From NCBI GenBank assembly GCA_001784175.1, contig MFPR01000028.1, forward strand, positions 317,606 to 381,605: a stretch of DNA of 64,000 nt. The letters run 5' to 3'. This DNA is from Candidatus Lindowbacteria bacterium RIFCSPLOWO2_12_FULL_62_27 (GTDB lineage: Bacteria > Lindowbacteria > 2-12-FULL-62-27). Position 1 is the stretch's first letter; each line of letters starts with the position of its first letter. Shown piece by piece: positions 25,343 through 40,421 of this stretch. The notes under the pieces were generated by a model, which was given only the letters and a program-made list of their open reading frames with translations, had not been told where the DNA came from and searched no databases. Made by a program: the position numbers and the translations under genes.

Positions 25343-25575
25343 TGGCGCGCTTCGCCTTCCCGGGAATTTGTCTCCTTTTCTTCGCGGCCATCTTCGCTCA
25401 AGCCCTCACGGTCTTCATCCCGATCGTTTCAAGACTTCTGTTCGATCCCGGCCCGTCCGGCCAGGCCTTGCGCCAGGCGCTGAAATGGATATCTCTGCAC
25501 CTCGCCGTCCCCCTCGCCGGCGCGATCGCCGGCGGCGCCGTCGTTGTGTTTCGACAGCGTCGAAGCTCCAGGTGA
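25342..25575 (+). CDS. Small two-helix membrane protein, unknown
   Basis: 77 residues with two hydrophobic segments (about 5-30 and 50-70) separated by a short loop, ending in basic RQRRSSR, which would sit in the cytoplasm. ATG at 25342 shares a base with the preceding stop (TGATG). Not recognised. Its position in a chain of overlapping genes, and codon use like the neighbours, support its being real. Confidence 0.5.
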   Translation: MARFAFPGICLLFFAAIFAQALTVFIPIVSRLLFDPGPSGQALRQALKWISLHLAVPLAGAIAGGAVVVFRQRRSSR

Positions 25576-27224
25576 ACCTGCGACTCGCCCGGTCCTTCGA
25601 GCGCGTCCTCGACTGGATCCGGGAAAACAAACCGCTCGAGGCCACCGCCCTCGGCATTCACGACCAGGATCATCGCGTCGATCCGCTCGCCCGCGACCGC
25701 CGCGAACCGGCGGAGCGTCTGTCGGACATCCGCGCGGCCGTCCCCGCCGGCGGGCCTCCGGACGACGCGCTGGACGCGGGCGCGCTCCGCGCCTGGCTGT
25801 CCGAGATCGCGCTCACCGAGTACGAATTCGATCTCCCGGCGCGCTCGGCCGGACACATGCTCGAAGATTTCTTGACCGCCCTCTTCCATCAGGTCAACGG
25901 AACCTACGCGGCGCCGGTCGAACGGTTCGGCGCGCTCCTCTACCGGCTCCGAGAACTCCAGCGGCTCCTCGGGCAGGTGCTCCTTGTGCTTCAGGAATCG
26001 GCCGCGCGCGGGATCGTGCCCACCGCATGGACGGAACACGGAATGGACGTCGCCGAAGACGGCGCGAAATATCTGCTGGCCATCCGGCGCGAACTTCCGC
26101 GCTGGCTCCCCTCCAAAGCCGTCGCGCCGCTGCGCCGCGCGGTGGCCGAAGAGCTGACCCGCGCGTCCCGGGCCTGCATGGAATTTCGCGCTGATCTCCA
26201 AAAACGCATCCTTCCCAAAAGTTCGCCCCAGGCCGCCCACGCCGGGCCGAAACTGTTCGGCCGGATTTTGGTGGAGGCCCACCGGATGCCCGCGGATCCC
26301 ATGCCGTTTGTGAGGGAGGCGGAAGATGAAAAAAACGAGATTCTCATGCGGCTCGAAAAACTGTCTCTGAACATCTGCGGCGACGCCGACTGGCACGCGG
26401 CCGCCGACCAACTCGCCCGGCATCATCCGGCGGCTGGCGAACTCATCCCGGCCTTCCGGCGCGAAACCGGGAAACTTCTGCGCTTTGTCGAAGCCCGCAA
26501 GATCACGGCCATGCGCAGCGACAGCTCGCTCGAGGTCATCGAAACGCCGCCGTTTGAACGCGCCAGCATCCCGTACGCCGCCTACCAGGGCGCGCCGGCC
26601 TTCGAACGGCGCGAACGGCTCGGATATTTTTTCGTCACGCCGCCGGATCCCCGCGCCTCCGCCGCCGCGCGGCTGCGGCACCTTCGAGAGTTCCCCACCG
26701 CGTCCATCGTTCTCACGGCCGCGCACGAAGGCGTTCCCGGCCACCATCTTCAGCATCTCGTCGCCCACGCGTCGGCGCGGCCGATCCGGTGGATGGTGTG
26801 GGATTCGTTTTTCGGAGAGGGCTGGGCGCACTATTCGGAAGGTCTCGTGTTCGGCGCCGGTTTCCCCTCGGACGAGCGATCGGAGTTTTTTCTGCTCAAG
26901 GACCGCCTCTGGCGCTGCGTGCGCGTCAAACTCGACGTCCAAATCCACACTCGGAATCTCCCACTCGCCCAGGCCGCCTCCATTCTCGCCAGAGAGGCCG
27001 GACTGTCCCGCGAGGGCGCGTGGGGGGAAATTGTCCGCTACAGCCTCGAACCGACGCAACCGATGTCATACTTCGTCGGCCGCAAGTGGTTTGAGCGGCA
27101 CGCAAGGGAATCGCGCCTGAGCGCCAGAGGCGGCGATGAGCCCGCCGCATTCTACGACCGCGTTCTCAGCTTTGGCGCGGTTCCGCTGCCGCTCGCGGAA
27201 AAACGCCTGTGTCAAAAACCGTGA
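25572..27224 (+). CDS. DUF885 family zinc metallopeptidase-like protein
   Basis: 550 residues from GTG 25572 (GTGA overlap with the previous gene), the usual DUF885 length. The signature AAHEGVPGHHLQH (about residue 386) provides a metal-binding HExxxxHH motif, followed by SFFGEGWAHYSEGL, a second conserved DUF885 block carrying the third ligand. Members are presumed carboxypeptidases or oligopeptidases. No signal peptide, so cytoplasmic. N-terminal half is helical. The gene overlaps the following ATP-grasp gene by 16 nt. Longer upstream extensions in frame cover the previous two genes and are not accepted. Confidence 0.85.
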   Translation: MNLRLARSFERVLDWIRENKPLEATALGIHDQDHRVDPLARDRREPAERLSDIRAAVPAGGPPDDALDAGALRAWLSEIALTEYEFDLPARSAGHMLEDFLTALFHQVNGTYAAPVERFGALLYRLRELQRLLGQVLLVLQESAARGIVPTAWTEHGMDVAEDGAKYLLAIRRELPRWLPSKAVAPLRRAVAEELTRASRACMEFRADLQKRILPKSSPQAAHAGPKLFGRILVEAHRMPADPMPFVREAEDEKNEILMRLEKLSLNICGDADWHAAADQLARHHPAAGELIPAFRRETGKLLRFVEARKITAMRSDSSLEVIETPPFERASIPYAAYQGAPAFERRERLGYFFVTPPDPRASAAARLRHLREFPTASIVLTAAHEGVPGHHLQHLVAHASARPIRWMVWDSFFGEGWAHYSEGLVFGAGFPSDERSEFFLLKDRLWRCVRVKLDVQIHTRNLPLAQAASILAREAGLSREGAWGEIVRYSLEPTQPMSYFVGRKWFERHARESRLSARGGDEPAAFYDRVLSFGAVPLPLAEKRLCQKP

Positions 27225-28636
27225 ACGTCGATCAGGTCCGGGCCGGCATGGCCCGCGAGATGCACTCGATGCCGTCGGCCGCCCGCCGGGAGATGGTCGA
27301 GACCCTGCGGACGCTGGCGATGCGGCGCAGCATCACCTACGAATACGACAAATCGAGCGGAGAAGAGCCCATCCGGATTTTGTTCCCGCCCGTCCTCCTC
27401 GATCAGGCCGATCTCAGGCCGATCTACGACGTCAGCCTCCGGATGTCTCACGCCTGCGAGCGGGCCCTCGGCCTCTTCCTGGAACGTGAGGACGTCCGGA
27501 ACATCCTGCCGCTGGAATATGAAGAAGAGCGCTTTCTGTTCGGCATTTCCCCTGAGTCTCACGCGCGGTCGCCCGCGATCTGGCAGAGGCTCGACGCGGC
27601 GATGGATCCGGCCCGGCCCATGGACACGCTCCGATTCCTTGAAACCAACATGAATTCCGTTGGCGGCGTTTACTACGCGCCGGCCGTCGAAAAGCTGTCG
27701 ATGGAAGTCGTGTTGCCCAAGCTCCTTCACCCGCCGCAACTCGACCGTGTATCGCCCCTCGATGATCTCGAAAAACTTCTGTACGCCCTTCTCTGCCGCC
27801 ACGCCCGCCGCCTCGGGATTTGGTCCCCGGCCGAAGCCCCGTTTCCGCACGTCCCCCTGCGCGTCGCGGTGGTCGAAAACGATCCCGGCGCCGAGGGGCC
27901 CACCGAGACGCCCGCCGCGATCGAGGGACTCTGCGCCATGGGTGCCGACGCCTTCGCCGCGCGCCCCGAGGAGTTCGAAATCCGCGGCGACCAGCTCATT
28001 CATCTCGGCCGGACGGTCGATCTCGTCTACCGGCTGTTCGAAATACGCGAACTCATGGAAATGAAACCGATCGAAGCGCTCAAGCTCGCCTTCGCCGGCA
28101 ACCGCGCCGTGTCCGGCGCCGGGGGCGAGTTCGACCACAAGAGTGTTTTTGAATTGTTCACCTCGGCGGCCTTCGACCGCCTGTTCTCGGCGGAGGACCG
28201 CCGCGCGTTTCGGGCCCATGTCCTCTGGACCCGGCTGCTCAGGGAAACCTTCACCGACGCGCCGGACGGATCCAAAATCGATCTCCCAGAATTCGCCTTC
28301 CGCGCCCGCGACGCGCTTGTCCTCAAACCCAACCGCTCCTACGGCGGCGACAGCATCGTGATCGGAAGAGAAACAGACGACGGGACGTGGCAGTCAGCCG
28401 TCGATCGCGCCATGTCCCAACCGGACCGGTTCGTCGTCCAATCGGTCTGCCCCCTGGCCGAGATGCCCTTCACCGTGATCGACCCGGCCGGCGGCGCGGT
28501 CGAGGAGCGCCTCAAGGTCGTCTTCGGCCTTTCCTCCACGCCCGACGGATTCGGCATCATCGGCCGCGCCTCGCGGTCCTCCGTCGTCAACGTCGCCCGG
28601 CACGGAGGCCTCACGCCGGTCCTCCAGGCTTCTTAA
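27209..28636 (+). CDS. Circularly permuted ATP-grasp-like protein
   Basis: 475 residues. The C-terminal part has VLKPNRSYGGDSIVIGRE, then FVVQSVCPLAEMPF and a closing RASRSSVVNVARHGG, the order expected of circularly permuted ATP-grasp proteins related to glutathionylspermidine synthase. The middle shows an ETNMNSVGGVYYAP block that resembles their pre-ATP-grasp region. These enzymes ligate an amine to a carboxylate using ATP. GTG 27209 overlaps DUF885 by 16 nt; GTG 27221, which would give the GTGA overlap typical here, is an equally good start. A peptidase followed by a ligase suggests a peptide-like substrate, but nothing identifies it. Confidence 0.65.
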   Translation: MSKTVNVDQVRAGMAREMHSMPSAARREMVETLRTLAMRRSITYEYDKSSGEEPIRILFPPVLLDQADLRPIYDVSLRMSHACERALGLFLEREDVRNILPLEYEEERFLFGISPESHARSPAIWQRLDAAMDPARPMDTLRFLETNMNSVGGVYYAPAVEKLSMEVVLPKLLHPPQLDRVSPLDDLEKLLYALLCRHARRLGIWSPAEAPFPHVPLRVAVVENDPGAEGPTETPAAIEGLCAMGADAFAARPEEFEIRGDQLIHLGRTVDLVYRLFEIRELMEMKPIEALKLAFAGNRAVSGAGGEFDHKSVFELFTSAAFDRLFSAEDRRAFRAHVLWTRLLRETFTDAPDGSKIDLPEFAFRARDALVLKPNRSYGGDSIVIGRETDDGTWQSAVDRAMSQPDRFVVQSVCPLAEMPFTVIDPAGGAVEERLKVVFGLSSTPDGFGIIGRASRSSVVNVARHGGLTPVLQAS

Positions 28637-29058
28637 CCGGTGTAGGCGCGACCGGGCGGGTTCCCACTTTCTATCGGTAATCCTTCCTGGCTCCACCCCT
28701 TCATGGCAATAAACCCGGATGGATCACGTGTGCCGCCGTAGCCGCCCTGAACATTGGCCAGAGACTCAAACCCCGCGGCTTCCAGTATCTGGCACGCCTT
28801 TTGCGACCGGCCGCCCGCCATACATCCGATCACCAAGCGTTTGGTTTTTGGGAATATCTTCTCCACCTTTTCCTTGAAATCCGGGTTTGGAACCATCTGT
28901 CCGGATTCATCTCGAACCATCACCGGAACATTGTACGCCCCTTCCGGGTGCCCCGCCTCATATTCCTCCACGGTGCGAACGTCCAGATAGATCGCAGGAT
29001 TTGTTGAATCTTCCATTTGTTCAGACGCGATCCCGGGGGTAATCTGTTCGATTGCCAT
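28633..29058 (-). CDS. Rhodanese-domain sulfurtransferase
   Basis: 141 residues, single rhodanese domain. LDVRTVEEYEAGHPEGAYNVP is the CH2A-like N-terminal block and IGCMAGGRSQKA is the active-site loop with catalytic Cys (about residue 79). It could accept persulfide sulfur and hand it to a carrier such as MoaD, but is on the other strand, so this is speculative. Strong ribosome-binding site GGAGGTGA (29065-29072, minus) 6 nt before the ATG. Overlaps tail-to-tail by 4 nt with the ATP-grasp gene. Confidence 0.92.
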   Translation of the reverse strand: MAIEQITPGIASEQMEDSTNPAIYLDVRTVEEYEAGHPEGAYNVPVMVRDESGQMVPNPDFKEKVEKIFPKTKRLVIGCMAGGRSQKACQILEAAGFESLANVQGGYGGTRDPSGFIAMKGWSQEGLPIESGNPPGRAYTG

Positions 29059-29162
29059 TTGACTTCACCTCCACGATTTCTATGTTGCATTCCATCCTAG
29101 CATGGCAATGGCATTAAGTTGAATACGTAACGTTTTTATCTCCCGATTCCGACAAGTACAGT

Positions 29163-30683
29163 ATGGACTCCCTCTTTGACCAGAACCGCCGGTTTCTGCA
29201 GTCGCGGTTTCCAAGCGCTTTGGAAGCCTACCAGAAGGCCGTGCCGCCGCCGGCGAGCGGGCCGGACTGGATCGAGCTTCCCCTGCCGCTGCCCGGCGCG
29301 CCCAAACTCAGGTTGTCGGCCGGGCATGACGCGTTTGTGGAGGAACATCAGAGAACGCTGGCCGGCGCCGCGAAATTCGCGGGCGCCATGGTCTGGGGCG
29401 TCCGGACGGCCGACGATCTCGAATTCTACTGGCATTCCCTTCCGCGCCGGCCTTTCGTCTATCTCGAATCCGACCCCGCCGTCTTCGCGCGCGTTCTGCA
29501 AAAGGTCCGGCTGGACCGGCTGTTCGGCGAGTCCGGCGCCCGCATCGCGTTCGCCAGCGACTGCGGGGAACTCATGTCGGAAATGGCCGTCGCGTTCGGC
29601 GAGGAGGAGTTGACGGCGTCCCGGATCGGGTTTCTCTTCGAACCCTCCCTCTTTTCCCGCCTGCTCGCCGAGGACCATCCGATGGGGCGATTCGTCAATC
29701 TGATTTTAAAAAATGTTTTTCTGAACCGCAGCGAGGAGGAAATGATGCAGGCGAAGGAGGGGCTCAAAGAGAAGCAGTTCATCGATAAAATATTTCCGCC
29801 CGCCTACCTCTACCAGTCGATGCAACGCTTCCTGAACCTCCTTGCGGTCGCGTCGCCCGGGATCCGCACCCTCTATCGCGAAATGACCCGGCCGGTGGAC
29901 GCGCGGGCCGTTCTGCCGGTGTCCATCGTCATCCTCGCATGGAACCGCTGGGACCTCACCGAGCGGTGCCTGCGGGCGCTCTGCTCCCATCCGTTGCCGG
30001 CCGACAGCGAGATCATCGTCGTCGACAACGGCTCGACCGACCGCACGCCGGAGATGCTCAAGGCGCTCGCCGAAAGGCTCCCGCCGCTCCGGCCCCTGAC
30101 CCTGCCCCGCAACCTGGGTCCGGCCGGCGGCCGGGACGAGGCGGCCAAGATCGCGCGCGGCAAAACGCTCGTGTTCCTCGACAACGACGTCGAGATCAAG
30201 CACGAACGCTGGCTCGACATTCTGCTGGAGCCGTTCCTGTTTTACCCCCGCGTCGGGTCCTGTGGGGCCTTCGGCGTCATCCACACGCACGACGAGTCCG
30301 AGACATGGTCGCAAAAAATCGTGTTCCCCGGACTGGTCGTACCGGTCTCGTGGATTTCCTCTTTTTGCCTTGCGGTCCGAAAGCAGGCGCTGATCGAGTG
30401 TGGCGGCTGGCGGCCCGATCTCTATCCGCTCTACGGCATGGAGGACGTCGCGCTCGGGTATGCGCTTCGCGAAGCCGGCTGGATCTCCGTCGTGCCGGGA
30501 CAGTTCGTCCCCGTCACCCACGGCATGAACCACAAGGACGGGCACTACGACTACGATTTCGTGGACAGCGGAAAACGCAACTCCGAAATCTTCTCGAAAA
30601 TCTGGGGCCCCCGCCGCCGCCTCCTCAACGCCGCACGCGGCAACCGGACCCTCGCCACCATCGTTTCCTCCCCTGCGGCGTAA
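29163..30683 (+). CDS. GT2 glycosyltransferase with extra N-terminal domain (module 1)
   Basis: 506 residues. Residues 1-255 form an unrecognised helical/alpha-beta domain (VWGVRTADDLEFYWHSL, FVYLESDPAVFARVLQKV) that resembles the motility-accessory/DUF115-like class. Residues about 257-500 are a GT-A family 2 glycosyltransferase: SIVILAWNRWDLTERCLRAL, IIVVDNGSTDRTPEML, metal-binding FLDNDVEI (DxD-like) and GMEDVALGYALREAGW. Followed after 16 nt by a Nudix gene, an arrangement repeated at 38451-39625. Likely sugar acceptor unknown. Confidence 0.85.
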   Translation: MDSLFDQNRRFLQSRFPSALEAYQKAVPPPASGPDWIELPLPLPGAPKLRLSAGHDAFVEEHQRTLAGAAKFAGAMVWGVRTADDLEFYWHSLPRRPFVYLESDPAVFARVLQKVRLDRLFGESGARIAFASDCGELMSEMAVAFGEEELTASRIGFLFEPSLFSRLLAEDHPMGRFVNLILKNVFLNRSEEEMMQAKEGLKEKQFIDKIFPPAYLYQSMQRFLNLLAVASPGIRTLYREMTRPVDARAVLPVSIVILAWNRWDLTERCLRALCSHPLPADSEIIVVDNGSTDRTPEMLKALAERLPPLRPLTLPRNLGPAGGRDEAAKIARGKTLVFLDNDVEIKHERWLDILLEPFLFYPRVGSCGAFGVIHTHDESETWSQKIVFPGLVVPVSWISSFCLAVRKQALIECGGWRPDLYPLYGMEDVALGYALREAGWISVVPGQFVPVTHGMNHKDGHYDYDFVDSGKRNSEIFSKIWGPRRRLLNAARGNRTLATIVSSPAA

Positions 30684-30699
30684 TAGTTCAAAATCGAAG

Positions 30700-31134
30700 A
30701 TGCGCCGGGAGGTGGTCGTGGTCCTCCCCTACGCCGGCGGCCGAGTGCTCATGCACCTGAGGGACAGGAATGCGAAATACAATCCGGAGATGTGGGGATT
30801 CTTCAGCGGCGGCGTTGAACCCGGCGAAACGCCGATGGAATGCGCGCTCCGGGAAATCGAGGAGGAAATCAATTTGAAGCCGGCGGCGATCCATAAACTC
30901 GACAGCCGCCAATCGGAGGACCTCACCCACGTCGTTTCGCACGCCTTTTACTGCGCCCTCGATGTCCCGCTCGATTCGCTCATCCTGCGGGAGGGCCTCG
31001 ATTCGGGACTGTTTACGGTGGAGGAAATTGAGAGCGGGCAACTGTATTCCGGGAAATTCAAACGGCCTTTCCCGGTGGCGCCCTTCCGCTACATTCCGAA
31101 CACCGTAAAAAGACTCTTCAAACGTCTCGAATAA
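30700..31134 (+). CDS. Nudix hydrolase (module 1)
   Basis: 144 residues. Nudix box GGVEPGETPMECALREIEEE carries the REUxEE metal-binding core; the terminal Gly of the consensus is Asn. A second related protein sits at 39179-39625 (shared VVVLPY/VVILPY start, MWGFF-GG, VSHAFYCAL/VSHSFFCAL, REGLDSGLFT/HEGLDYGLYT, YSGKFKRPFPV/HSRKLNKPMPV and R-YIPNTVKRL/SYVPRAVRKL). Both follow a GT2 gene. The pair may hydrolyse a nucleoside-diphosphate sugar or other NDP-linked intermediate. Confidence 0.88.
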   Translation: MRREVVVVLPYAGGRVLMHLRDRNAKYNPEMWGFFSGGVEPGETPMECALREIEEEINLKPAAIHKLDSRQSEDLTHVVSHAFYCALDVPLDSLILREGLDSGLFTVEEIESGQLYSGKFKRPFPVAPFRYIPNTVKRLFKRLE

Positions 31135-31167
31135 AACTCCGGAACCTGACTTTCGTCAGGACGGCCG

Positions 31168-32058
31168 TCAGGCGGGATTGCCCGTGTGCCGCGCGTGCAC
31201 CAGGCAGTCGGTCTCCATGGTGTAGAGCCCGAAGAACCACCGGCCCTTCATGCTGCTCCAGTCGGGATTCAGGGTGTCCATGTCCACCGGATTGACGCCG
31301 TGCGTGACCGTTGGGTAATTGATGACGGCGTCGCCGACCCGGGTCCTTCCCTCGGACGTGACCTCCCGGCCCTGCTGGTCGATGAAGTAGAGGCCGCCGG
31401 ATCGAAAGTCCACGTCGAGCTGCGTCATCTGAATGCTCATGATGGTTCTTTGATGGCCCCACGGGTCCTGGTGCCGCTCGATGTAGCCGATCCCCGCGGG
31501 ATAGTGCGCCACGACGATCCGGTCCACCAATCCGTCGCTCGGAATGTTGCGGACGCATTCGTCCGGGTCGAACCCGCCCCACTTCTTTGTGTAGGACCAG
31601 AACTCGTTGATCATCGGCCACACGCCGAACGGGTCCGGATTGTGGCGGAAGAAGTAGTAGTCATGGCGCGGATACTTCAGCGCGTATTTCTTCACAATGT
31701 CCGGCGTGATGATCCGGTGAAAATTCGGGATGCCGTCCTGAACCTTGTGGAAACTCGGCTCGACGGTCTTGCCCCACTCGTGCAGCTCTTTCCGCAGCCT
31801 CCGGAGCTTGTCCTCCGGCACGACCCCGCGGATGATGTAGGCGTCGCCGGCGAACATCGACTCGGTGAATTCCCGGTCGTAACTGTCCACCCGCTTCTTG
31901 AATTCGGAGAATGTCACCTCCCGAAGCTCCCGCATGAACGCGGGCGCGTGGGAGGGCGCCTTTCCATCCGGCGGCACGCCGTTGAGACTTTCGAGTTCCG
32001 CCAGATACTTGTTTCCCCCGCCGCTCCAGTACCTCTGAGAGGTTCGCAGATCCGCCAT
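31168..32058 (-). CDS. 2-oxoglutarate/Fe(II)-dependent dioxygenase (PhyH-like)
   Basis: 296 residues. Double-stranded beta-helix ligands: His and Asp in ERHQDPWGHQ, distal His in TVTHGVNP, and the 2OG-binding Arg in GRWFFGLY. The N-terminal 60 residues are helical. Such enzymes hydroxylate, halogenate or desaturate small molecules or residues. It is the last gene of the minus-strand set with two radical SAM genes (26 nt downstream of the first, 23 nt between those), consistent with tailoring of one product. Ribosome-binding AAGGCGG precedes the ATG. Confidence 0.85.
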   Translation of the reverse strand: MADLRTSQRYWSGGGNKYLAELESLNGVPPDGKAPSHAPAFMRELREVTFSEFKKRVDSYDREFTESMFAGDAYIIRGVVPEDKLRRLRKELHEWGKTVEPSFHKVQDGIPNFHRIITPDIVKKYALKYPRHDYYFFRHNPDPFGVWPMINEFWSYTKKWGGFDPDECVRNIPSDGLVDRIVVAHYPAGIGYIERHQDPWGHQRTIMSIQMTQLDVDFRSGGLYFIDQQGREVTSEGRTRVGDAVINYPTVTHGVNPVDMDTLNPDWSSMKGRWFFGLYTMETDCLVHARHTGNPA

Positions 32059-32084
32059 GAAGTCAACCCGCCTTTCTTCGGAAA

Positions 32085-34127
32085 TTAAACTTGGACGGTG
32101 GCTGAATAGATGTTGGGCGCGAAGTAGGTGACCCGGGAACCGTTTTTCCCGGTGCTCATCGCATTGAAAACCCGGCTGCCACGCACATCCAGATAGTATT
32201 TCAAAAACCGGTCCCGCGCGCCGTGGGACGGCAACATGTCTTCCACCTCATATACGAAGTGCCCCTCTTCCAGCGGCACGCGCCGGCCCTCCGACATTTG
32301 TTCGACATAGTCGGGCACGTCATGCTGAAGCGTCAACGTCGGCGTCGGCGGGCCTTCCCAGTGCGCCAGAAAATGGCGCTGGGTCTTGAAAAGATCCGCC
32401 ATCATGGTCTCCGGAACTTCGACGTTCCGCCGCTTCAGATACTCCCGCAAGAGTTGCTCCATCTCGCCGAAAAAGTCGTTCCGCCACGCCATGGTGATCA
32501 GGTACACCGCCTCCGACGCCGTCCAGTGGGCTTCGTCAAAGCCCGGGATCACGTTCAAGTAATCCCGGTTGTCGTTGAGCAGGCCGTCGATCCGCGCGTC
32601 CAAATACCGCATGATCCCCGCCATCTTGGGGTACCGGCCCGAGGGCGCCTCCGCCAGACAGTAATCGGCAAACCCGGTCACGGGAACGCTGTATTCGTTT
32701 TTCAGAAACATGAGCGGCACAAAGTAGCTCCGGTGGTCGTACAGCGCCAGCGTGAAAAACGCCGTCTTGTAGGCCTTCCGCCACATCTCATGCGGCATGG
32801 TCTTGGTCGAGATCACCACGTCCTCGAATTCCTCCACCACCTTGTCGGAGCCGGCCGTGCGGTAAAACCCGAAGGGGATCCGGCGCGTCTTGATTTCGTG
32901 CTCCCGGATCTGGTCCGGCAGGGCCATCTCTGTGTTTTCGAGAATGGAGGCCAGATACACGAAAATATGGTCGTCCAGAGAATTCGTCAGCATTTCTTCT
33001 ATTCCCGACAGAAACGTGTCATAGGTCTCCTCCGGCAGGGGCAGGATGAGTTCGGTGTAGGTGGGCATGTCCTCCCGGCTGAAGGCCTCTTTCAGTTCCC
33101 GGTACGTGCTGAGCTTGATGTTCGAGCGCTTGACAGCCTTCAGGGTCTTTTCGTTGGTGCTCTGCAGGGACAGCCCGACTTTAAAGCCGACGCCGCCCTT
33201 CCGGAGCGTCTTGGCGTTGCCCATCACCTTCATCGAACTGTTCTTGACCCAGCTCACCGACAGGTACCGCGGATTGCCGTATTTTTCCTTGACGGCGACC
33301 AGCATCTCGGCGATTTCCTGGTCGCGCATCTTGATCCCGAAATTCGCATCGGCGCAGTTGATGTAGGAGATGCCGTTCTTCCCCATCCACTCCAGTTCCT
33401 CCCGCAGGACGTTGATGTCAAAATACCGGACCTCCATCCCAATGGCCGTGCCCCAGTTGCAGAACGTGCAGGAGAAGGGGCATCCGCGGTTCGTCTCCCA
33501 GATGACGCCCGAAAACCAGTCCTTGTGGCGCGTGTACAGATCCGTGAACGTCCCGTCCAGAAACGGCGAGGGAATCGCCGCCAGGTCCTGAACGAACGGC
33601 CGCTCGCCGGTGAACACATGCTCTTTCCCGTTCCCGACGCCGGCTCGGTACGAAATCCCCTTGACCGCCGACAAATCCGGCGTGGGGCTCCGCAGGTACG
33701 CCAGCGCCAAATCTTCGAGCAGGACTTCGTCGCTGTGACACAGAATGTCCACGCACGCGTGCTTGCGGAAAAATTCCGCCTTTCGATCCTCCAGGTTCGG
33801 CACCGAAGGACCGCCGAACACCACCACGGCCTCGGGATATTCCTGCTTGACCAGCCGTGCCACCGCCAGTGTCAGTTCAATGTTCCACATGTAGACCGAA
33901 AAGGCAGCGATGGTCGGATGGTCCATCCGCGCTACGATCTTGGCGGGATCCTCCCTCAAAAACAGGATCTCTTCGAGTCGGTACCCTTTGACAATGTCCG
34001 GATTTCGGCGCAGGACAGAATAAAGCCGTCCCGCCGAAAGAGGCATGAGGTTCTTGGAAAATCCCGTCGCAAACTGGCAGAGCTGGATGCCCGGTTTCTC
34101 AACTCGGGCGAATGCCGCAGGCGCCAT
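32085..34127 (-). CDS. B12-binding radical SAM protein A
   Basis: 680 residues. The N-terminal B12-binding Rossmann region (VVVFGGPSVPN and VDILCHSDE patterns) precedes the radical SAM core with CxxxCxxC in NRGCPFSCTFCNWG (about residue 220). The C-terminal 250 residues are an extra helical domain with YFVPLMFLKNEYSVP and AHWTASEAVYLITMAWR. Members methylate unactivated carbons or perform other cobalamin-assisted radical chemistry. Coupled to B12-radical SAM protein B upstream and to the dioxygenase downstream. Substrate unknown. Confidence 0.88.
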   Translation of the reverse strand: MAPAAFARVEKPGIQLCQFATGFSKNLMPLSAGRLYSVLRRNPDIVKGYRLEEILFLREDPAKIVARMDHPTIAAFSVYMWNIELTLAVARLVKQEYPEAVVVFGGPSVPNLEDRKAEFFRKHACVDILCHSDEVLLEDLALAYLRSPTPDLSAVKGISYRAGVGNGKEHVFTGERPFVQDLAAIPSPFLDGTFTDLYTRHKDWFSGVIWETNRGCPFSCTFCNWGTAIGMEVRYFDINVLREELEWMGKNGISYINCADANFGIKMRDQEIAEMLVAVKEKYGNPRYLSVSWVKNSSMKVMGNAKTLRKGGVGFKVGLSLQSTNEKTLKAVKRSNIKLSTYRELKEAFSREDMPTYTELILPLPEETYDTFLSGIEEMLTNSLDDHIFVYLASILENTEMALPDQIREHEIKTRRIPFGFYRTAGSDKVVEEFEDVVISTKTMPHEMWRKAYKTAFFTLALYDHRSYFVPLMFLKNEYSVPVTGFADYCLAEAPSGRYPKMAGIMRYLDARIDGLLNDNRDYLNVIPGFDEAHWTASEAVYLITMAWRNDFFGEMEQLLREYLKRRNVEVPETMMADLFKTQRHFLAHWEGPPTPTLTLQHDVPDYVEQMSEGRRVPLEEGHFVYEVEDMLPSHGARDRFLKYYLDVRGSRVFNAMSTGKNGSRVTYFAPNIYSATVQV

Positions 34128-34150
34128 GTCCCGTCCCGGGGTGCGTCCGG

Positions 34151-35761
34151 CTAGAAGCCGAAGCTGACCGGGGTTGTCGCTTTTTCCCGGCTCATCTCGA
34201 CCCCGGGATAGGTCTGTGCGCCGGGAGACCGGTGATCGCCGTGGTGTTCCACCTCGGTCGTTTTCGAGCCGTTGTTCCCGTGGCCGTTCTTTTTCTCGCG
34301 CATTTTCATCAGATTGTCCTGGACGCTCTTGAAGGTGCTCGTCCGGAGACCCTCCAGTTCATCCAGCGTGATGCCCATCATTTTGGAGAGCTTTTCCCGC
34401 TTCTTCTGGGTTCTGAAATTAATCCGTTCCCATTCATACGCGCGGATGATCGTGATGTCCTCGGGGGTCCACTCGTTGGACACGATCTGGGTGGTCGACC
34501 AGTTCATGTCCTTCATCTGGCCGCTCGTGTCCGCGTGGGTCGCCAGGAGATTGTTCTCCATCGCCATCTTCGCAAGCTCCGTGCCCTCCAGCGGCGTCGC
34601 GATGAAAAACTTGGCGTAGTCCGGATCGATCTCCTGCGCGAACGCGAACGTCTGGCGGATCTCCTCCCAGGTTTCGGTGGGGAAGCCGATGATGAAGTTG
34701 GTGATGAGGTCCATCCCGGCCTCCTTGATCTTCATCGAGACATGCCGCGCCGACTCCAGCTTCACGGGCTTGTGGATGATGTCCCGCAGCACGCGCTCGG
34801 TCCCCGATTCAACCGCGAGCGCCACCGAACAGCAGCCGGACCGCGCCATCAGATCAATGATCTCGTCGTTCATGTGAAACACCGCCACCGCGTGGGCCTT
34901 CCAGCTCAGGTTCATTTTCAGGTCGATCAGCTTGTTGCAAAATTCCTTGACGCGCGGCCGGTTGATGAAAAAGTTGTCGTCGTCCATCATGAAGGACTTG
35001 ATCCCGTAGTCGGCCTGCAGCCACTGAAGTTCCTTGATGACATTGTCGACGCTCCGGTACCGGAAGGGCCCGCCCGTGATGAGTTCCACTTCACAGAAGG
35101 TGCAACCGATCGGACAGCCCCGCGACGTCATCATGCGGGTATAGGGGTAGAGATAGGGGTGATCCACGGTGACCTTACCAACCTTGTTCGAGTACTCTCC
35201 ATAATTGACCATGTCCCAGGCCGGATACGGCAGGGCATCCAGGTTCTGAATGAAGGGGGCGCGCTGAAGCTTGTCGGGAATCGTCTGCTCTCCGTCTTTC
35301 CGGCCCAGAAACCCGGCCGGCGGAAATGAGCCGCGGCCGTTCAGATACTGGAGAAGTTCCTGAAAGACATACTCCCCTTCGCCGACGCAGATGTAGTCAA
35401 AATTCTTGTCGTTGTAGATGGTCTTGTACGAAACCGTCGCATAGACCCCGCCCACCACGGTGATGATATCCGGACTGATTTCCTTGACGTATTTCGCGCC
35501 AAGGTGAACCGACTCCCAGTATTCGTTCGTAAGAAGGGTCAGGCCCACGAGGTCGGGATCCAGGTCTTCGATGATTTTCTTGAACTGTTCTGGAGTATAG
35601 TCATGCGCGTTCCCGTCCACGACCGTTACGTCATAATCCTTTCGGATCATCGCCGCCAGCAGACACAAGTTCATCGGATGGACATCCCAACTGGTTTTCC
35701 AGTTCCAGTCGATCCATTTCATGTTCGGCTGAACCAGCACGATCTTCTTAACGCCAGACAT
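34151..35761 (-). CDS. B12-binding radical SAM protein B
   Basis: 536 residues. B12-binding region at 1-150 (VTVVDGNAHDYTPEQF, IITVVGGVYATVSYK, YICVGEGEYVFQELL), radical SAM core with SRGCPIGCTFCEVE (about residue 220), and a charged C-terminal extension, Gly/His/Asn rich (NGHGNNGSKTTEVEHHGDH). First gene of the minus-strand operon, with a textbook promoter and palindromic operator. SD GAGGAGGGG is 5-6 nt before the ATG. Distinct from protein A, so two different radical reactions are likely. Confidence 0.88.
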   Translation of the reverse strand: MSGVKKIVLVQPNMKWIDWNWKTSWDVHPMNLCLLAAMIRKDYDVTVVDGNAHDYTPEQFKKIIEDLDPDLVGLTLLTNEYWESVHLGAKYVKEISPDIITVVGGVYATVSYKTIYNDKNFDYICVGEGEYVFQELLQYLNGRGSFPPAGFLGRKDGEQTIPDKLQRAPFIQNLDALPYPAWDMVNYGEYSNKVGKVTVDHPYLYPYTRMMTSRGCPIGCTFCEVELITGGPFRYRSVDNVIKELQWLQADYGIKSFMMDDDNFFINRPRVKEFCNKLIDLKMNLSWKAHAVAVFHMNDEIIDLMARSGCCSVALAVESGTERVLRDIIHKPVKLESARHVSMKIKEAGMDLITNFIIGFPTETWEEIRQTFAFAQEIDPDYAKFFIATPLEGTELAKMAMENNLLATHADTSGQMKDMNWSTTQIVSNEWTPEDITIIRAYEWERINFRTQKKREKLSKMMGITLDELEGLRTSTFKSVQDNLMKMREKKNGHGNNGSKTTEVEHHGDHRSPGAQTYPGVEMSREKATTPVSFGF

Positions 35762-35796
35762 AGGCTCCCCTCCTCATCAGGGTTTAGAGTTTTTCA

Positions 35797-35810
35797 TCTA
35801 TACGTATAGA
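35797..35810. promoter_or_regulatory. Palindromic operator of the radical SAM operon
   Basis: TCTATACGTATAGA is a perfect 14-bp palindrome placed at the predicted transcription start of the radical SAM/dioxygenase operon, just downstream of its -10 box. Repressor binding there would block initiation. Regulator unknown; the nearby membrane-bound winged-helix proteins are candidates. Confidence 0.6.
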
Positions 35811-35816
35811 CTTGTA

Positions 35817-35845
35817 ATTCTATTCATATTTCCGAGACGTGTCAA
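35817..35845 (-). promoter_or_regulatory. Strong sigma70 promoter of the radical SAM operon
   Basis: Minus strand: TTGACA (35845-35840) and TAGAAT (35822-35817) separated by exactly 17 nt. The flanking region is AT-rich compared with the surrounding genes. Drives the genes at 35761 down to 31168. Confidence 0.8.
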
Positions 35846-35870
35846 GAAAAGACGACAAAAAAATCAGGTA

Positions 35871-36416
35871 TTAGGTAACCCCCAGAACCCGCTTCAACAA
35901 CCCGATCGCCTTCGCCTGCAGAAACATCTGCGACCGGCTGATTCGGTAGATCCCGGCGCTTTCGCGCAAGTAGCCGGCGCCGACCAGTTTGGCCAGACGA
36001 ATCTTCAATATCGTCTCATCGCTGTAGGCGTCGCGCAACTCCGCAGGCGTCGCCGAGCCGCCGGGCCGTTTGTCCAGCTCCAGCAGGATCCGGATCCGCA
36101 CGGCCGCTTCGCCCATGCCGAAGACCCAGGACAGATAATGGAGGGTGAGCAGGGAATAAACGGCCGGCGTGGAGAGACCTGCCAGCCGGCGGGCAGCGAT
36201 CGTATACTCGGGAAAAATCGGCGCCGTTCCAATCAACCCCCACGCCCCTGCGCAGGCGGCCATAAAGCCGCACGCGAATGAGAACGCCAGCGGCAGCGTC
36301 AATTGCCGCGGTCTCAGATACCGGAACACAATCACATGAACGACCAGAAACAAGACAAAGGCTGCTGCGGCCGCGCCAAAGACATAAAGGTCAATCCCGT
36401 GGATCCCCGCCCCCAT
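35871..36416 (-). CDS. Membrane protein with C-terminal winged-helix domain (paralogue A)
   Basis: 181 residues. Four membrane segments (about 9-95) are followed by a cytoplasmic winged-helix module: RIRILLELDKRPGG, then a recognition-helix-like LKIRLAKLVGAGYLRES and wing IYRIS. It is paired with the gene at 36420-36932, which has the same layout. Such membrane-tethered winged-helix proteins may be one-component regulators. 3 nt downstream of its paralogue, so cotranscribed. Not recognised as a named family. Confidence 0.65.
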   Translation of the reverse strand: MGAGIHGIDLYVFGAAAAAFVLFLVVHVIVFRYLRPRQLTLPLAFSFACGFMAACAGAWGLIGTAPIFPEYTIAARRLAGLSTPAVYSLLTLHYLSWVFGMGEAAVRIRILLELDKRPGGSATPAELRDAYSDETILKIRLAKLVGAGYLRESAGIYRISRSQMFLQAKAIGLLKRVLGVT

Positions 36417-36419
36417 GCC

Positions 36420-36932
36420 TCAGCCCCCTGCCTCGAGCCGAAACAACTGCCGGTAGGCTCTCATCAGCCGCGCCACCCGCCGGCCGCCGGGTTGAAGCGT
36501 GTACCGGGCGCCATCGAATGCGATATACCCGCTGGCGACAAGGTCGTCCAGCCGGCTCTGAACGATTCTCTCGCCGGTCAGATAGTCTTTCAACTGCACA
36601 TGGCTCGCTTCCGCGCCGGCCGACCGGTTCACGAACTCCAGGATCTTCATCGACGGACTCCCGTACGGAACAAGGTTGCATTCCAGGATGTAGCAGAGGC
36701 AGAACAGAAAAAAGAGCGCCATCGACGTGAAGGCCAGCGGCACGTTCCAAAATCCCGTCCCGGCGGGCATCCCTCCCCCGACGGCCCACACCGCCCCATA
36801 CACCGCCAGCCACAGGACCGCCAGTCCAAGGAGTTTCGGAAGCTCCACGCACATGACACCGGCGCGGGCCAGAAGGATATGGGTGGCCACAAACAGGAGG
36901 AAAAACAGAACCCCCATCGCGAGCCAGAACAT
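36420..36932 (-). CDS. Membrane protein with C-terminal winged-helix domain (paralogue B)
   Basis: 170 residues starting at ATG 36932. Membrane segments cover 1-95 (VLFFLLFVATHILLA and so on); the C-terminal part, KILEFVNRSAGAE through LVASGYIAFDGARYTLQPGG, has winged-helix pattern. A longer frame continues upstream but overlaps the divergent HemN-like gene and is discarded. The predicted -10 box lies only about 8 nt upstream of the ATG, so the mRNA may be leaderless. Divergent from the HemN-like gene. Confidence 0.65.
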   Translation of the reverse strand: MFWLAMGVLFFLLFVATHILLARAGVMCVELPKLLGLAVLWLAVYGAVWAVGGGMPAGTGFWNVPLAFTSMALFFLFCLCYILECNLVPYGSPSMKILEFVNRSAGAEASHVQLKDYLTGERIVQSRLDDLVASGYIAFDGARYTLQPGGRRVARLMRAYRQLFRLEAGG

Positions 36933-36939
36933 GCCCGCG

Positions 36940-36968
36940 TTTCTACCGCCGCCGCCGCGTATTGTCAA
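36940..36968 (-). promoter_or_regulatory. Promoter of the membrane/winged-helix pair
   Basis: Minus strand TTGACA (36968-36963) and TAGAAA (36945-36940), spacer 17. The -35 box is embedded in the palindrome at 36957-36973. The start of transcription would fall at or next to the ATG at 36932. Confidence 0.6.
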
Positions 36969-36973
36969 TACGC
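36957..36973. promoter_or_regulatory. Palindromic operator over the -35 of the winged-helix pair promoter
   Basis: GCGTATTG and CAATACGC flank a single central T, giving a perfect 17-bp inverted repeat that covers the -35 box of the minus-strand promoter and lies 28 nt upstream of the HemN-like gene's -35. Position suits autorepression with possible cross-control of the divergent gene. Confidence 0.6.
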
Positions 36974-37000
36974 CGTCCACCGCCGCCGCGCGGGGCCGGT

Positions 37001-37029
37001 TTGACAACTGCCGGCCGGACGGATATAGT
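37001..37029 (+). promoter_or_regulatory. Strong sigma70 promoter of the HemN-like gene
   Basis: TTGACA 37001-37006 and TATAGT 37024-37029, spacer 17. The spacer carries CCGGCCGG. AAGGAG-type Shine-Dalgarno at about 37038-37045 precedes ATG 37053. Confidence 0.8.
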
Positions 37030-37052
37030 TGGCCTGTGAAGGAGACACGAGG

Positions 37053-38438
37053 ATGAACCTGAATCCGGCGCTGATTGAGAAGTATTCGGTGATCGGCCCA
37101 TACTATTCGAGCTATCCGCCCCTGGGCGAGTGGAAGGAGGATTTCCGGACGGCCGACTTTGAGCAGGCCCTCGGCCGGTTCTGCGCGGAGGACACGCCCG
37201 CCGAGCCCAACACGTACGCCTTCTATGCGCACTATCCGTACTGTATCCAGCTCTGCTATTTCTGTCTCTGTAACATGCGCGTGACGCAGGACAAGGCCGT
37301 GAAAGAGAGGGCCCTTCGCGCGCTCGCCCGCGAGATCGACTACTTCCGGCGATTCATCGACGCCCAGCCGCGCCAGCCCGTCTGCAAGGAAATCCATCTC
37401 GGCGGCGGCACGCCCTCCTTCATGGACAACGAGGATTTCGACGGATTCATCGCCGCCATCAAGTCCCTGGTCGACACCTCGACGGTCGAGGAATTCGCGA
37501 TGGAGATCGACCCGCGGACCGTGACGCCCGAATCGATCACCCACTTCGCGACGAAAGGGATCAACCGGATATCGTTCGGGATACAGGATTTCAATCCCCG
37601 CGTCCAGGAGGCCGTCAACCGCGTCCAGCCCCTCGACCACGTCCGGGCCCTCCTCTCGCCTGAAATCCGAAACATCTACAAGAGCGTCAACTTTGACATT
37701 CTCTACGGTCTGCCCCTCCAGACCCGGCAGACGTTCCGGGAGACGATCGGGATCGTCAAGGAACTCATGCCGGAACGCATCACCCTCATCCGCTATGCCC
37801 ACGTGCCCGGCATCAAAAAACACATGAAACTCCTCAACGAGGCCGACATTCTCTCCGAGAAGGAAAAAGTCTGCATGTTCATCGAAACGGTCGAAAGCCT
37901 CCTGGACGCCGGCTACGAGCACGTCGGGATCGACAATTTCGCCAAGCCAACCGATTCGCTCGGCAAGGCCTTCCGGAACAAGACCGTGTGGCGGAATTTC
38001 AGCGGGTTCACGCCCGGCCGCGTCAAAAACATGATCGGCGTCGGCCCGTCCGCCACCAGCATCTTTTCCGGCATCTACTCCCAGAACATCTACGACATCG
38101 GCGCCTATCATCAGACCGTCGAGCGCGGCCAGTTCCCGCCGCTCGAACGCGGCTACCGCCTGCGCCGGGATGACCTGATCCGGCGCGAGGTCATCCTGAG
38201 GATCGCCTGCGACAACGACCTCGACTTCGACCAGATCGGCGAAAAGTTCGGGATCGAATTTCACACGTATTTCAAGGATGAACTGCAGTCGCTGGACGAG
38301 TTCGTGAACGACGGCCTCGTGGAGCGGAACGGCCGCAGTCTCACTGTCACGCCGCTCGGGCGGTTTTTCGTCCGGCACGTCTGCAAGGTCTTCGACGGGT
38401 TTCTCAAGAGCAAGACCTATCAGATACACGGGACCTGA
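37053..38438 (+). CDS. HemN-family radical SAM protein (coproporphyrinogen dehydrogenase-like)
   Basis: 461 residues, alignable with HemN over its full length: start ALIEKYSVIGPYYSSYP, cluster motif HYPYCIQLCYFCLCN (C-x3-C-x2-C plus the fourth HemN cysteine), HLGGGTPSF, FDILYGLPLQT, RYAHVPG and a C-terminal HemN-type domain. Canonical HemN decarboxylates coproporphyrinogen III anaerobically. Variation (HYPYC in place of HIPFC) and a setting with no other haem gene leave open a HemN-like role, for example methylation or cyclopropanation. Own strong promoter; followed by GT2 (12 nt) and Nudix genes. Confidence 0.82.
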   Translation: MNLNPALIEKYSVIGPYYSSYPPLGEWKEDFRTADFEQALGRFCAEDTPAEPNTYAFYAHYPYCIQLCYFCLCNMRVTQDKAVKERALRALAREIDYFRRFIDAQPRQPVCKEIHLGGGTPSFMDNEDFDGFIAAIKSLVDTSTVEEFAMEIDPRTVTPESITHFATKGINRISFGIQDFNPRVQEAVNRVQPLDHVRALLSPEIRNIYKSVNFDILYGLPLQTRQTFRETIGIVKELMPERITLIRYAHVPGIKKHMKLLNEADILSEKEKVCMFIETVESLLDAGYEHVGIDNFAKPTDSLGKAFRNKTVWRNFSGFTPGRVKNMIGVGPSATSIFSGIYSQNIYDIGAYHQTVERGQFPPLERGYRLRRDDLIRREVILRIACDNDLDFDQIGEKFGIEFHTYFKDELQSLDEFVNDGLVERNGRSLTVTPLGRFFVRHVCKVFDGFLKSKTYQIHGT

Positions 38439-38450
38439 GCCGGGCGTGAC

Positions 38451-39182
38451 ATGGCGGGTCCGTCCGGCGAGGTGGAAGTAACCTTTTTTGTTCCCTGCCT
38501 GAACGAAGAAAAGAACATCGTTCCCTCCATCGAAACGATCCTGGCCGCCGTCCGCATGGCCGGATGCACCTTTGAAATCATCGTCGTCGACGATCATTCC
38601 GCCGACCGGTCCGTGCCGGTCGTCGAAGACTACATGGCCCGGCATCCGGACCTGCCCATCCGCATCGTCAAGAACAGCCGGCGACAGGGCCTGTCGCGCA
38701 ATTACACCGACTGCGCGTTTATCGGCCGGGGAACCTATTACAAATTTTTCGGCGGGAGCAACATGGAATTGGCCAACGATGTGGCGGCCGCGCTCAGGCT
38801 CAGGGGGACCGCCGACATGATTGTGCCCTATCCCGTCGATGACAAGCGGACCCTCAAGAGAAGGATCATCTCGAAGCTCTACGCGAACATCGTCAGTTGG
38901 ATCACCGGCTACCGCCTCCGGTATTACAACGGACCCATCCTCCACAGGCGCTACAACGTCATGCGCTGGCATGCCGACTCCTACGGCTACGGCTACCAGG
39001 CCGAAATCATCACGCGCCTCCTCAACGAGGGCGCGACCTTCGTCGAGGTCGCCATGAGCAACTCGGACCGGGCCGCAGCCGTCAAATCGAATGCCTTCAA
39101 GCTGCAAAACGTGCTGTCCGTCACGCACAGCCTCCTGCAGATATTATTTCGAAGCCTCCGCCGAAGGTGGTTTCACGTTTGA
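38451..39182 (+). CDS. GT2 glycosyltransferase (module 2, polyprenyl-phosphate type)
   Basis: 243 residues, compact GT-A family 2 enzyme: TFFVPCLNEEKNIVPSIE, IIVVDDHSADRS, NSRRQGLSRNY and YGYGYQAEIITRLLNEGA. Resembles dolichyl/undecaprenyl-phosphate mannosyltransferases without the C-terminal membrane anchor, though the end is basic (LFRSLRRRW). ATG 38451 is 12 nt after hemN-like. The 3' end overlaps the second Nudix gene (TTGA), so the GT2-Nudix pair is again coupled. Confidence 0.85.
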   Translation: MAGPSGEVEVTFFVPCLNEEKNIVPSIETILAAVRMAGCTFEIIVVDDHSADRSVPVVEDYMARHPDLPIRIVKNSRRQGLSRNYTDCAFIGRGTYYKFFGGSNMELANDVAAALRLRGTADMIVPYPVDDKRTLKRRIISKLYANIVSWITGYRLRYYNGPILHRRYNVMRWHADSYGYGYQAEIITRLLNEGATFVEVAMSNSDRAAAVKSNAFKLQNVLSVTHSLLQILFRSLRRRWFHV

Positions 39183-39625
39183 CGGCGGACGTGGTGGTGA
39201 TTCTCCCGTACGTGGAAAACAGGGTGCTCCTCCAGCTCAGGGATTTCAATGCAGGCATCGTGTTCCCCGGCATGTGGGGCTTTTTCGGCGGAACGGTAGA
39301 AGCGGGCGAGGCGCCGAAGGATTCGGCGATCCGGGAACTCGTGGAGGAAATTGAATACCGGCCGGCCGAGATGCGCCTTCTGGAGACCGAAGTCGTCACG
39401 GAACTGGACAATCTCGTTTCACATTCTTTTTTCTGCGCCCTGACCGCGCCGCTCGAAAAGCTGGTCTTGCACGAAGGACTCGATTACGGCCTTTACACGC
39501 TCGACGAAGTCCTGTCCGGGCAACTCCATTCCAGGAAATTAAACAAGCCCATGCCGGTCATCCCCGTGTCGTATGTGCCCCGCGCCGTCCGGAAATTGAT
39601 GGCCCGGCTGGGCGTTATCCGGTAA
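39179..39625 (+). CDS. Nudix hydrolase (module 2)
   Basis: 148 residues from TTG 39179, overlapping the GT2 stop. Nudix box GGTVEAGEAPKDSAIRELVE carries RELxEE; the consensus final Gly is replaced by Glu. Close paralogue of the protein at 30700-31134 along the full length. A GAAGGTGG ribosome-binding site is about 10 nt ahead. A longer frame upstream belongs to the GT2 strand overlap. Probably acts on the nucleotide-linked product or donor of the preceding glycosyltransferase. Confidence 0.85.
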   Translation: MTADVVVILPYVENRVLLQLRDFNAGIVFPGMWGFFGGTVEAGEAPKDSAIRELVEEIEYRPAEMRLLETEVVTELDNLVSHSFFCALTAPLEKLVLHEGLDYGLYTLDEVLSGQLHSRKLNKPMPVIPVSYVPRAVRKLMARLGVIR

Positions 39626-40421
39626 TCGGATACGCCTGCCGCCGGCGCGACACGTAATAGACGGCCTCCCCGAGTCCCGCGCGGCGCGCCAAATCGACGG
39701 CCTCCGGAATGCCGGTCCCGAACTGCGCCGGCGCGTGGCTGTCCGACCCCAGCGTGACGCACCGCCCTCCGAGCCGCACGTACTCGCGGATCGTCGGTTC
39801 GGCCGGAAAGGACTCCCGAAAGGCGTGGCGGTAGCCGGACGTGTTGATCTCGAGCGCCATTCCGCTGCGCGCGACAGCCGACAGGATTTGCTCGATCTGG
39901 CCGGCGTGCGGCGCCAGCGTGTACGAGCCGTAGACCGGGATGCTGTACCGTTTGAGGTGGTCGAAGTGGGCGAGAATGTCGAACAGCCCGGACTCCACCG
40001 TTCTCTCCACTTCCTCGAAGTACGCCCGAAACGCCGCCTCGGCCGTCTTGCCGCGGAAATACCGGTCGCCGTGATGGAAGGGGCACCGCGCGACGAAATG
40101 GACGGCGCCGATCAGGTAGTCGAAGTCCTTGCCGGCGAAATACCGTTTGGGGGCGTCCGAAAATTCCCGCTGGTAGCTCACCTCGATCCCTTTGAGGATC
40201 GTCAGCCGGCCCTCGTATTTTTTCCGCACCGCGTCGATGTCCCGGCTGTAGCGGTCGTAGTCCAGATACCCGCAGCCGTCGTCGTCCGGGTCGAACTCGA
40301 GGTGGTCGCTGAACCCGATGCCCTGGTATCCCTTCGACAGCGCCAGTTCCGCGTAGGCCTCCATGAACGCGCCATCGTGCGAGTCCGGCGAATGGACGGT
40401 GTGAATGTGCAGGTCGTACAT
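39615..40421 (-). CDS. PHP-domain phosphatase, histidinol-phosphatase type
   Basis: 268 residues. Metal ligands of the PHP fold: YDLHIHTVHSPDSHDG at the N-terminus, GIGFSDHLEF, GIEVSY, LIGAVHFV, ILAHFDHLKRY and LGSDSHAPAQFG. Matches HisJ-type histidinol phosphatases, though HisJ-like proteins also act as other phosphoesterases. ATG 40421. Its 3' end overlaps the Nudix gene by 11 nt on the opposite strand. No other his gene is visible, so the phosphate ester substrate is uncertain. Confidence 0.85.
   Translation of the reverse strand: MYDLHIHTVHSPDSHDGAFMEAYAELALSKGYQGIGFSDHLEFDPDDDGCGYLDYDRYSRDIDAVRKKYEGRLTILKGIEVSYQREFSDAPKRYFAGKDFDYLIGAVHFVARCPFHHGDRYFRGKTAEAAFRAYFEEVERTVESGLFDILAHFDHLKRYSIPVYGSYTLAPHAGQIEQILSAVARSGMALEINTSGYRHAFRESFPAEPTIREYVRLGGRCVTLGSDSHAPAQFGTGIPEAVDLARRAGLGEAVYYVSRRRQAYPITG

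Follow-up and report, generated by a model that had tools for sequence, protein, structure and literature searches.

The question raised by this locus was what a group of neighbouring radical S-adenosylmethionine (SAM), oxygenase, Nudix and glycosyltransferase genes does in the genome of Candidatus Lindowbacteria bacterium RIFCSPLOWO2_12_FULL_62_27, a member of a barely sampled phylum. The window, i.e. the whole stretch of DNA analysed, comprised 64 000 nucleotides of contig MFPR01000028.1. A first-pass annotation had proposed that 28633-40421 of this window is an accessory locus with a joint role in making a modified glycan, lipid or small molecule. Every gene that it listed was an open frame at the position given, and most were of the family named; Pfam and NCBIfam backed the domain calls for all of them except the Fe(II)/2-oxoglutarate (2OG) oxygenase, which was assigned by motif and had no profile match. 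The locus was found to hold an island of nine genes between a family-2 glycosyltransferase gene (GT2a) and a PHP phosphoesterase gene. Our preferred reading, held tentatively and at a little under an even chance, is that the island was gained at this site and tailors a surface glycan or another sugar-bearing molecule, most likely with rare chemical groups. Among the three products first proposed, a glycan was favoured, as most of the informative relatives sit in surface-glycan loci. The enzyme families are already known, their combination is not, and no paper combining the enzymes of this island was found in the collection of literature searched.

The phylum was represented in the comparison by three genomes, all incomplete: the source genome (G000; 4.39 Mb, 94% complete), G001 and G002. 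The gene order in G001 is Wzy_C/TPR gene, two small genes, GT2a, PHP, Smr, DnaG and RpoD, and the last two of the glycan-side genes, GT2a and PHP, converge there, their 3' ends sharing 33 bp (the empty site). The window keeps this order, but 8.9 kb split GT2a (29163..30683, + strand; 506 aa with a 250-aa N-terminal extension; Glycos_transf_2, 96.5 bits) from the HisJ-family PHP gene (39615..40421, - strand; PHP, 70.6 bits). The nine extra genes, at 30700-39625, are NudA, 2OG, rSAM-B, rSAM-A, wH1, wH2, HemN-like, GT2b and NudB. Orthologues of GT2a (55-56% identity) were found near the Wzy_C/TPR gene, and orthologues of PHP (60-67% identity) beside Smr-DnaG-RpoD, in both G001 and G002; in G002 the two lie on separate contigs, each with these same neighbours. 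At this site, no orthologue of NudA, 2OG, wH1, wH2, HemN, GT2b or NudB was found in G001 or G002, and the island proteins have no relatives there in either genome, barring a distant rSAM-B homologue in G002. Relatives of 2OG or wH and close Nudix relatives were found nowhere in G001 or G002, and close relatives of GT2b neither in these genomes nor on plasmids. The GC content of the island genes was 56.5-62.4%, against 64-66% for GT2a, PHP and DUF885.

The locus is thus accessory as first proposed, with narrower boundaries. Because GT2a and PHP are adjacent in G001 and G002 carries the rhodanese elsewhere in its genome (67-70% identity), the island was delimited within a conserved GT2a/O-antigen-ligase locus; the rhodanese was excluded, and GT2a and PHP are backbone genes outside the island. 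Gain here appears more likely than loss in G001. The locus also contains a Wzy_C (O-antigen-ligase/TPR) gene at 22260-24926, near GT2a in all three genomes, so that a polymerase/ligase (Wzy_C) and glycosyltransferases (GT2a, GT2b) are both present. At 25164-29058, the Wzy_C/TPR gene is parted from GT2a by DUF885, by a gene at 27209-28636 that has no Pfam match, and by the rhodanese, an arrangement not shared by G001. This was regarded as a second insertion, distinct from the island but close to it.

The minus-strand unit of the island consists of rSAM-A (34151..35761), rSAM-B (32085..34127) and the putative 2OG oxygenase (31168..32058), in this order and with gaps of 23-26 bp. rSAM-B was aligned with solved structures and matched TokK (265 bits over residues 27-506, about 480 residues) and CysS (180 bits). 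It fell below the cut-off of the curated KedN5 family of B12 radical SAM C-methyltransferases (NF033712; 267.9 vs 700 bits). The CxxxCxxC cluster motif (C216, C220, C223) and W81 are kept, aligned in all relatives and in TokK. Trp81 corresponds to TokK Trp76, the Trp under the cobalt; a Trp sits below the cobalt in both TokK and CysS, and both enzymes methylate unactivated carbons (PMC12846815). rSAM-B differs from TokK (carbapenem) and CysS (cystobactamid) in that no antibiotic scaffold genes are present here, identity is about 33% and the C-terminal substrate domain is unaligned by sequence: about 280 residues follow the core, and the PDB alignment stops at residue 506 of 680. rSAM-B is described as a relative of the TokK/CysS methylases and is predicted to transfer methyl to an unactivated carbon.

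The B12-binding domain of rSAM-A is clear (73.8 bits vs a cut-off of 32.1; Radical_SAM, 74.9 bits), whereas that of rSAM-B falls under the Pfam cut-off, yet lies within the TokK alignment. The description of both as B12-type radical SAM proteins holds directly for rSAM-A and by way of TokK for rSAM-B. rSAM-A meets no curated family, and its best relatives (33-40% identity) are in sugar loci. Its best PDB match was AprD4 (80 bits), mainly the radical SAM core being aligned. AprD4 and GenK are radical SAM enzymes of aminoglycoside sugars and exemplify radical SAM chemistry on sugars; no aminoglycoside genes are present near rSAM-A.

The 2OG protein had no match in Pfam, NCBIfam or PDB sequences, and no relatives were found in 386 sampled genomes or in phages. 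A Pseudoroseomonas protein (26% identity) and a more distant Indioceanicola frame (L040, L108) share its H-x-D ... H-G ... G-R motif, and the protein keeps the HxD...H facial triad and the 2OG-binding Arg. The conservation of this motif in two distant proteins supports its assignment as a putative Fe(II)/2OG oxygenase. A single-sequence AlphaFold model (pLDDT 36.8) was too low in confidence to read a double-stranded beta-helix fold.

The neighbourhoods of relatives were then compared; neighbours lacking a cited Pfam call take their names from the annotation as deposited or from sequence reading. Most of the rSAM-A homologues examined are in surface-glycan loci, as are about half of the rSAM-B homologues. 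rSAM-A relatives lie with glycosyltransferases, NAD epimerase/RmlD or DegT in seven loci (L121, L122, L123, L126, L106, L107 and L031). The L121 relative (40% to rSAM-A) has nucleotidyltransferase, GT2, RmlD/epimerases, SIS, E1 and transketolase as neighbours; L122 and L123 (33% to rSAM-A) have a split transketolase and RmlD, with GT9 also in L123; L126 has a GT2 and a UDP-glucose dehydrogenase nearby. On pDMC1 of Solidesulfovibrio, two GT2 genes, an rSAM-A homologue and a Nudix gene stand in a row, with GHMP kinase, E1, transketolase, GDP-fucose synthase and DegT also present. The Eleftheria relative is found with GT4, WecB-type and epimerase genes, and epimerase- and DegT-like genes surround that of Magnetococcales (L031). 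No clear pattern emerged for L124 and L125, and L032 has TPR/OGT-like neighbours. Across four of these loci (L121, L122, L123 and L106), the rSAM-A relatives recur with RmlD/epimerase and glycosyltransferase genes and with transketolase, either split or paired with E1, which suggests a sugar pathway, not yet described, that includes a B12 radical SAM reaction.

Among rSAM-B relatives, those of L006, L041, L096, L104 and L105 are in glycan loci; the relative in G002 has housekeeping neighbours. In L100 and L105, NudB relatives (38-40%) adjoin radical SAM genes within sugar cassettes that contain transketolase genes (L105 also has DegT genes), whereas NudB relatives in L099, L101, L102 and L103 lie among unrelated genes. 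At L100:5160-6765 and L105:17513-19226 (the latter an Azospirillum oryzae plasmid), two different records, the radical SAM genes are 77% identical and a NudB-type Nudix gene comes immediately after each, forming a shared pair. The glycan signal is strong for rSAM-A and moderate for rSAM-B and NudB, and these neighbourhoods led us to favour glycan tailoring. The island resembles the glycan cassettes of Azospirillum p2, Magnetococcales, Solidesulfovibrio pDMC1 and G120 C91, in which an rSAM-A or rSAM-B homologue accompanies glycosyltransferase, Nudix or sugar enzymes. These cassettes, whose function is itself predicted, have epimerase, transketolase or DegT genes, unlike the island. Most characterised cobalamin radical SAM methylases come from antibiotic pathways; in this genome and among the relatives collected, members of the TokK-like and rSAM-A families were found in surface-glycan loci of several distant bacteria. 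If glycan tailoring is correct, the part played by radical chemistry in modifying carbons of cell-surface sugars has been underestimated.

Several points weigh against this reading. The neighbourhoods were taken from best matches, with no matched control. The island holds no epimerase, nucleotidyltransferase, transketolase or DegT gene, and no sugar-nucleotide enzyme is found among the genes annotated at 22.2-40.4 kb, where 27209-28636 has no Pfam match. The Nudix protein of pDMC1 is only weakly like NudA and NudB. rSAM-B is a deep branch, sharing 27-28% identity with the clade from glycan loci and 33% with TokK over the part that aligns, and three of its relatives (L042, L097 and L098) are in contexts resembling nonribosomal peptide synthetase (NRPS) or asparagine synthase loci. 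The empty site may reflect loss in G001 instead of gain here. Finally, a search for co-localised homologues, as the first-pass annotation had proposed, gave a divided result. The set was absent from the two genomes of the same family and the rSAM-A/rSAM-B/2OG trio was not found elsewhere among the genomes searched, so the functional linkage rests on one genome; rSAM-A or rSAM-B relatives with GT2 and Nudix genes did occur in distant bacteria.

Under glycan tailoring, one regulated promoter would drive rSAM-A, rSAM-B and the 2OG enzyme. rSAM-B would transfer a methyl group from methylcobalamin to an unactivated carbon of an intermediate by TokK/CysS chemistry, rSAM-A would make a second cobalamin/radical change, and the product would be hydroxylated or desaturated by the 2OG enzyme. 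From a second promoter, the HemN-like two-SAM enzyme would be expressed for a further one-carbon or radical change. GT2b, and possibly GT2a, would attach a sugar, and the Nudix enzymes would hydrolyse nucleotide-diphosphate sugars, by-products or rejected intermediates. wH1 and wH2 would regulate the locus locally.

The same enzymes could instead make a diffusible natural product by alkyl building of the carbapenem or cystobactamid kind, with the glycosyltransferases adding a sugar. TokK and CysS, the best characterised relatives of rSAM-B, are antibiotic enzymes, and 2OG oxygenases are usual in natural-product pathways. Moreover, the Sinorhizobium relative of rSAM-B (L042) is in an adenylation-domain locus and that of L097 is near AMP-binding-like and asparagine-synthase-like genes, as read from the sequence. 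This alternative is a serious rival but was considered unlikely: no NRPS, polyketide synthase, beta-lactam synthetase or AMP-binding gene is annotated at 28.6-40.4 kb, the relatives of rSAM-A and NudB indicate glycans and the flank is a cell-surface glycan locus.

Alternatively, unrelated genes may have gathered at a tolerant site beside GT2a and share no pathway. In favour of such accretion, the gene set was found in one genome only, its genes form four transcription units on two strands, with a GC content that varies between units over the range given above, and the second insertion also split the Wzy_C gene from GT2a here and not in G001. The units are as follows. GT2a and NudA (30700..31134; NUDIX, 57 bits; island gene 1) are a plus-strand pair; the minus-strand rSAM-A unit and the plus-strand unit of the HemN-family gene (37053..38438), GT2b (38451..39182; a short protein; Glycos_transf_2, 52.9 bits) and NudB (39179..39625; NUDIX, 52 bits; the last island gene) have wH1 (35871..36416) and wH2 (36420..36932), both on the minus strand, between them. 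NudB overlaps the 3' end of PHP by 11 bp. The operon spacing is tight (gaps of 12-26 bp or overlaps), each end of the island is occupied by one of two paralogous Nudix genes, and there are two near-consensus promoters and a palindrome unique in the genome; these features argue against accretion. NudA and NudB (49% identity) are genuine paralogues, and RE..EE of the catalytic Nudix box is kept in both. With 25% identity over 124 aa, GT2a and GT2b are not closely related. Duplication was therefore ruled out as the source of the two GT2-Nudix modules first described, close paralogy being confined to the Nudix genes.

Eight promoter-like sites were observed, against 3.1 (standard deviation 1.7) in shuffles. 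The two best, of sigma-70 type and each with 11/12 consensus bases, sit exactly upstream of rSAM-A (TTGACA-17-TAGAAT; 35817..35845, - strand) and of HemN (TTGACA-17-TATAGT; 37001..37029, + strand). The 12-bp palindrome CTATACGTATAG (35798..35809, no strand assigned) starts about 8 bp past the -10 box of the rSAM-A promoter; it overlaps the expected transcription start and is a candidate operator. It is the sole copy in the 4.39-Mb genome at <=1 mismatch, against nine copies of the reversed control sequence. The two promoters and the genome-unique palindrome support dedicated regulation, as anticipated by the first-pass annotation, in so far as this can be read from sequence. The wH proteins had been described as a membrane winged-helix pair. 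They are indeed membrane paralogues (24% identity; two hydrophobic segments in wH1, about four in wH2); the possible winged helix is a sub-threshold helix-turn-helix match (HTH_20) at the C-terminus of wH1, and wH2 had no Pfam match. Both are plausible candidates for local regulators. Accretion, also a serious rival, was judged rather unlikely, and glycan tailoring was retained as the preferred reading.

The HemN-like protein passes the HemN cut-off (TIGR00538; 425.3 vs 324.95 bits) and is aligned over its full length to E. coli HemN (1OLT), with equivalents of Tyr56, Glu145, Gln172, Arg184, Asp209 and Phe310 kept. Tyr56 of HemN stacks on the second SAM (PMC13266988). The protein scores 307 bits with true HemN and 71 bits with NocN, and is thus closer to the former; compared with class C HemN-like methylases (NosN/NocN, C10P), it is HemN-type over its whole length and keeps the Tyr56 equivalent. 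It was compared with 30 HemN proteins picked by similarity to the query (29 from unrelated genomes and that of E. coli), each left out in turn. It departs at eight of 57 invariant columns (0-3 for the HemN proteins) and at 19 of 92 strongly conserved columns (0-6); the changes include Ile329->Thr, Arg22->Tyr, Tyr85->Ala and His289->Asn. Neither the uroporphyrinogen decarboxylase (HemE) family nor ferrochelatase was detected in the 94%-complete genome. No HemN orthologue was found in G001 or G002, and no relative on plasmids was closer than 38%. HemB is present in G000, G001 and G002 and ferrochelatase in none of the three; HemE is absent from G000 and G001, and G002 has only a 32-residue fragment at a contig end.

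Ordinary anaerobic heme synthesis, with the gene here by chance, would agree with the TIGR00538 score, the key residues kept in the full-length alignment and the presence of HemB. It was considered improbable in view of the undetected HemE-family enzyme and ferrochelatase, the lack of orthologues in G001 and G002 and the 19 changed columns. Because HemE and ferrochelatase were undetected and eight invariant columns are changed, the protein is probably not a heme enzyme: unlike HemN, it seems to lie outside heme synthesis, and its sequence is best read as that of a two-SAM enzyme acting on a substrate other than that of coproporphyrinogen dehydrogenase. A diverged HemE or scavenged coproporphyrinogen may also lie behind the undetected heme pathway. 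The HemN-family name first given was thus correct, but the divergence and the undetected enzymes had been overlooked. Such a divergent HemN makes a clear candidate for a novel activity in a family usually annotated as heme synthesis. It is conceivable, though doubtful, that a true-HemN-type two-SAM enzyme departed from porphyrin metabolism and that, together with the TokK-like rSAM-B, the other B12 radical SAM protein and the 2OG enzyme, it builds an unusual surface-glycan sugar that is C-alkylated and oxidised.

Isoprenoid or hopanoid lipid tailoring by an HpnJ-like rSAM-A was considered highly improbable: HpnJ (TIGR03471) is among the top NCBIfam profiles for rSAM-A, and a squalene/phytoene synthase and an amine-oxidase-family protein are encoded at 44.6-47.0 kb, but the score of 178.7 bits is below the cut-off of 577.6, the squalene-type genes are ancestral backbone common to G001 and G002, and closer rSAM-A relatives are in sugar loci.

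Other candidates were set aside. A mobile-element origin was rejected, as there was no tRNA, no long flanking repeat and no Rfam match. A defence system was rejected too, PADLOC giving weak matches only, to radical SAM and Nudix candidate models. In G002, a TokK-like radical SAM gene of a different clade (L028:7652-9658) lies about 5 kb from GT2a. It was not retained as proof of conserved linkage, because its product shares 49-50% identity with proteins of Magnetococcales and Azospirillum, against 27-30% with rSAM-B, and because NadA-, cyclophilin- and PEPCK-like genes intervene; its position is probably a coincidence. Within the island, an inverted repeat read from the sequence, CGTATTGTCAATACG (36958..36972, no strand assigned), lies between wH2 and HemN.

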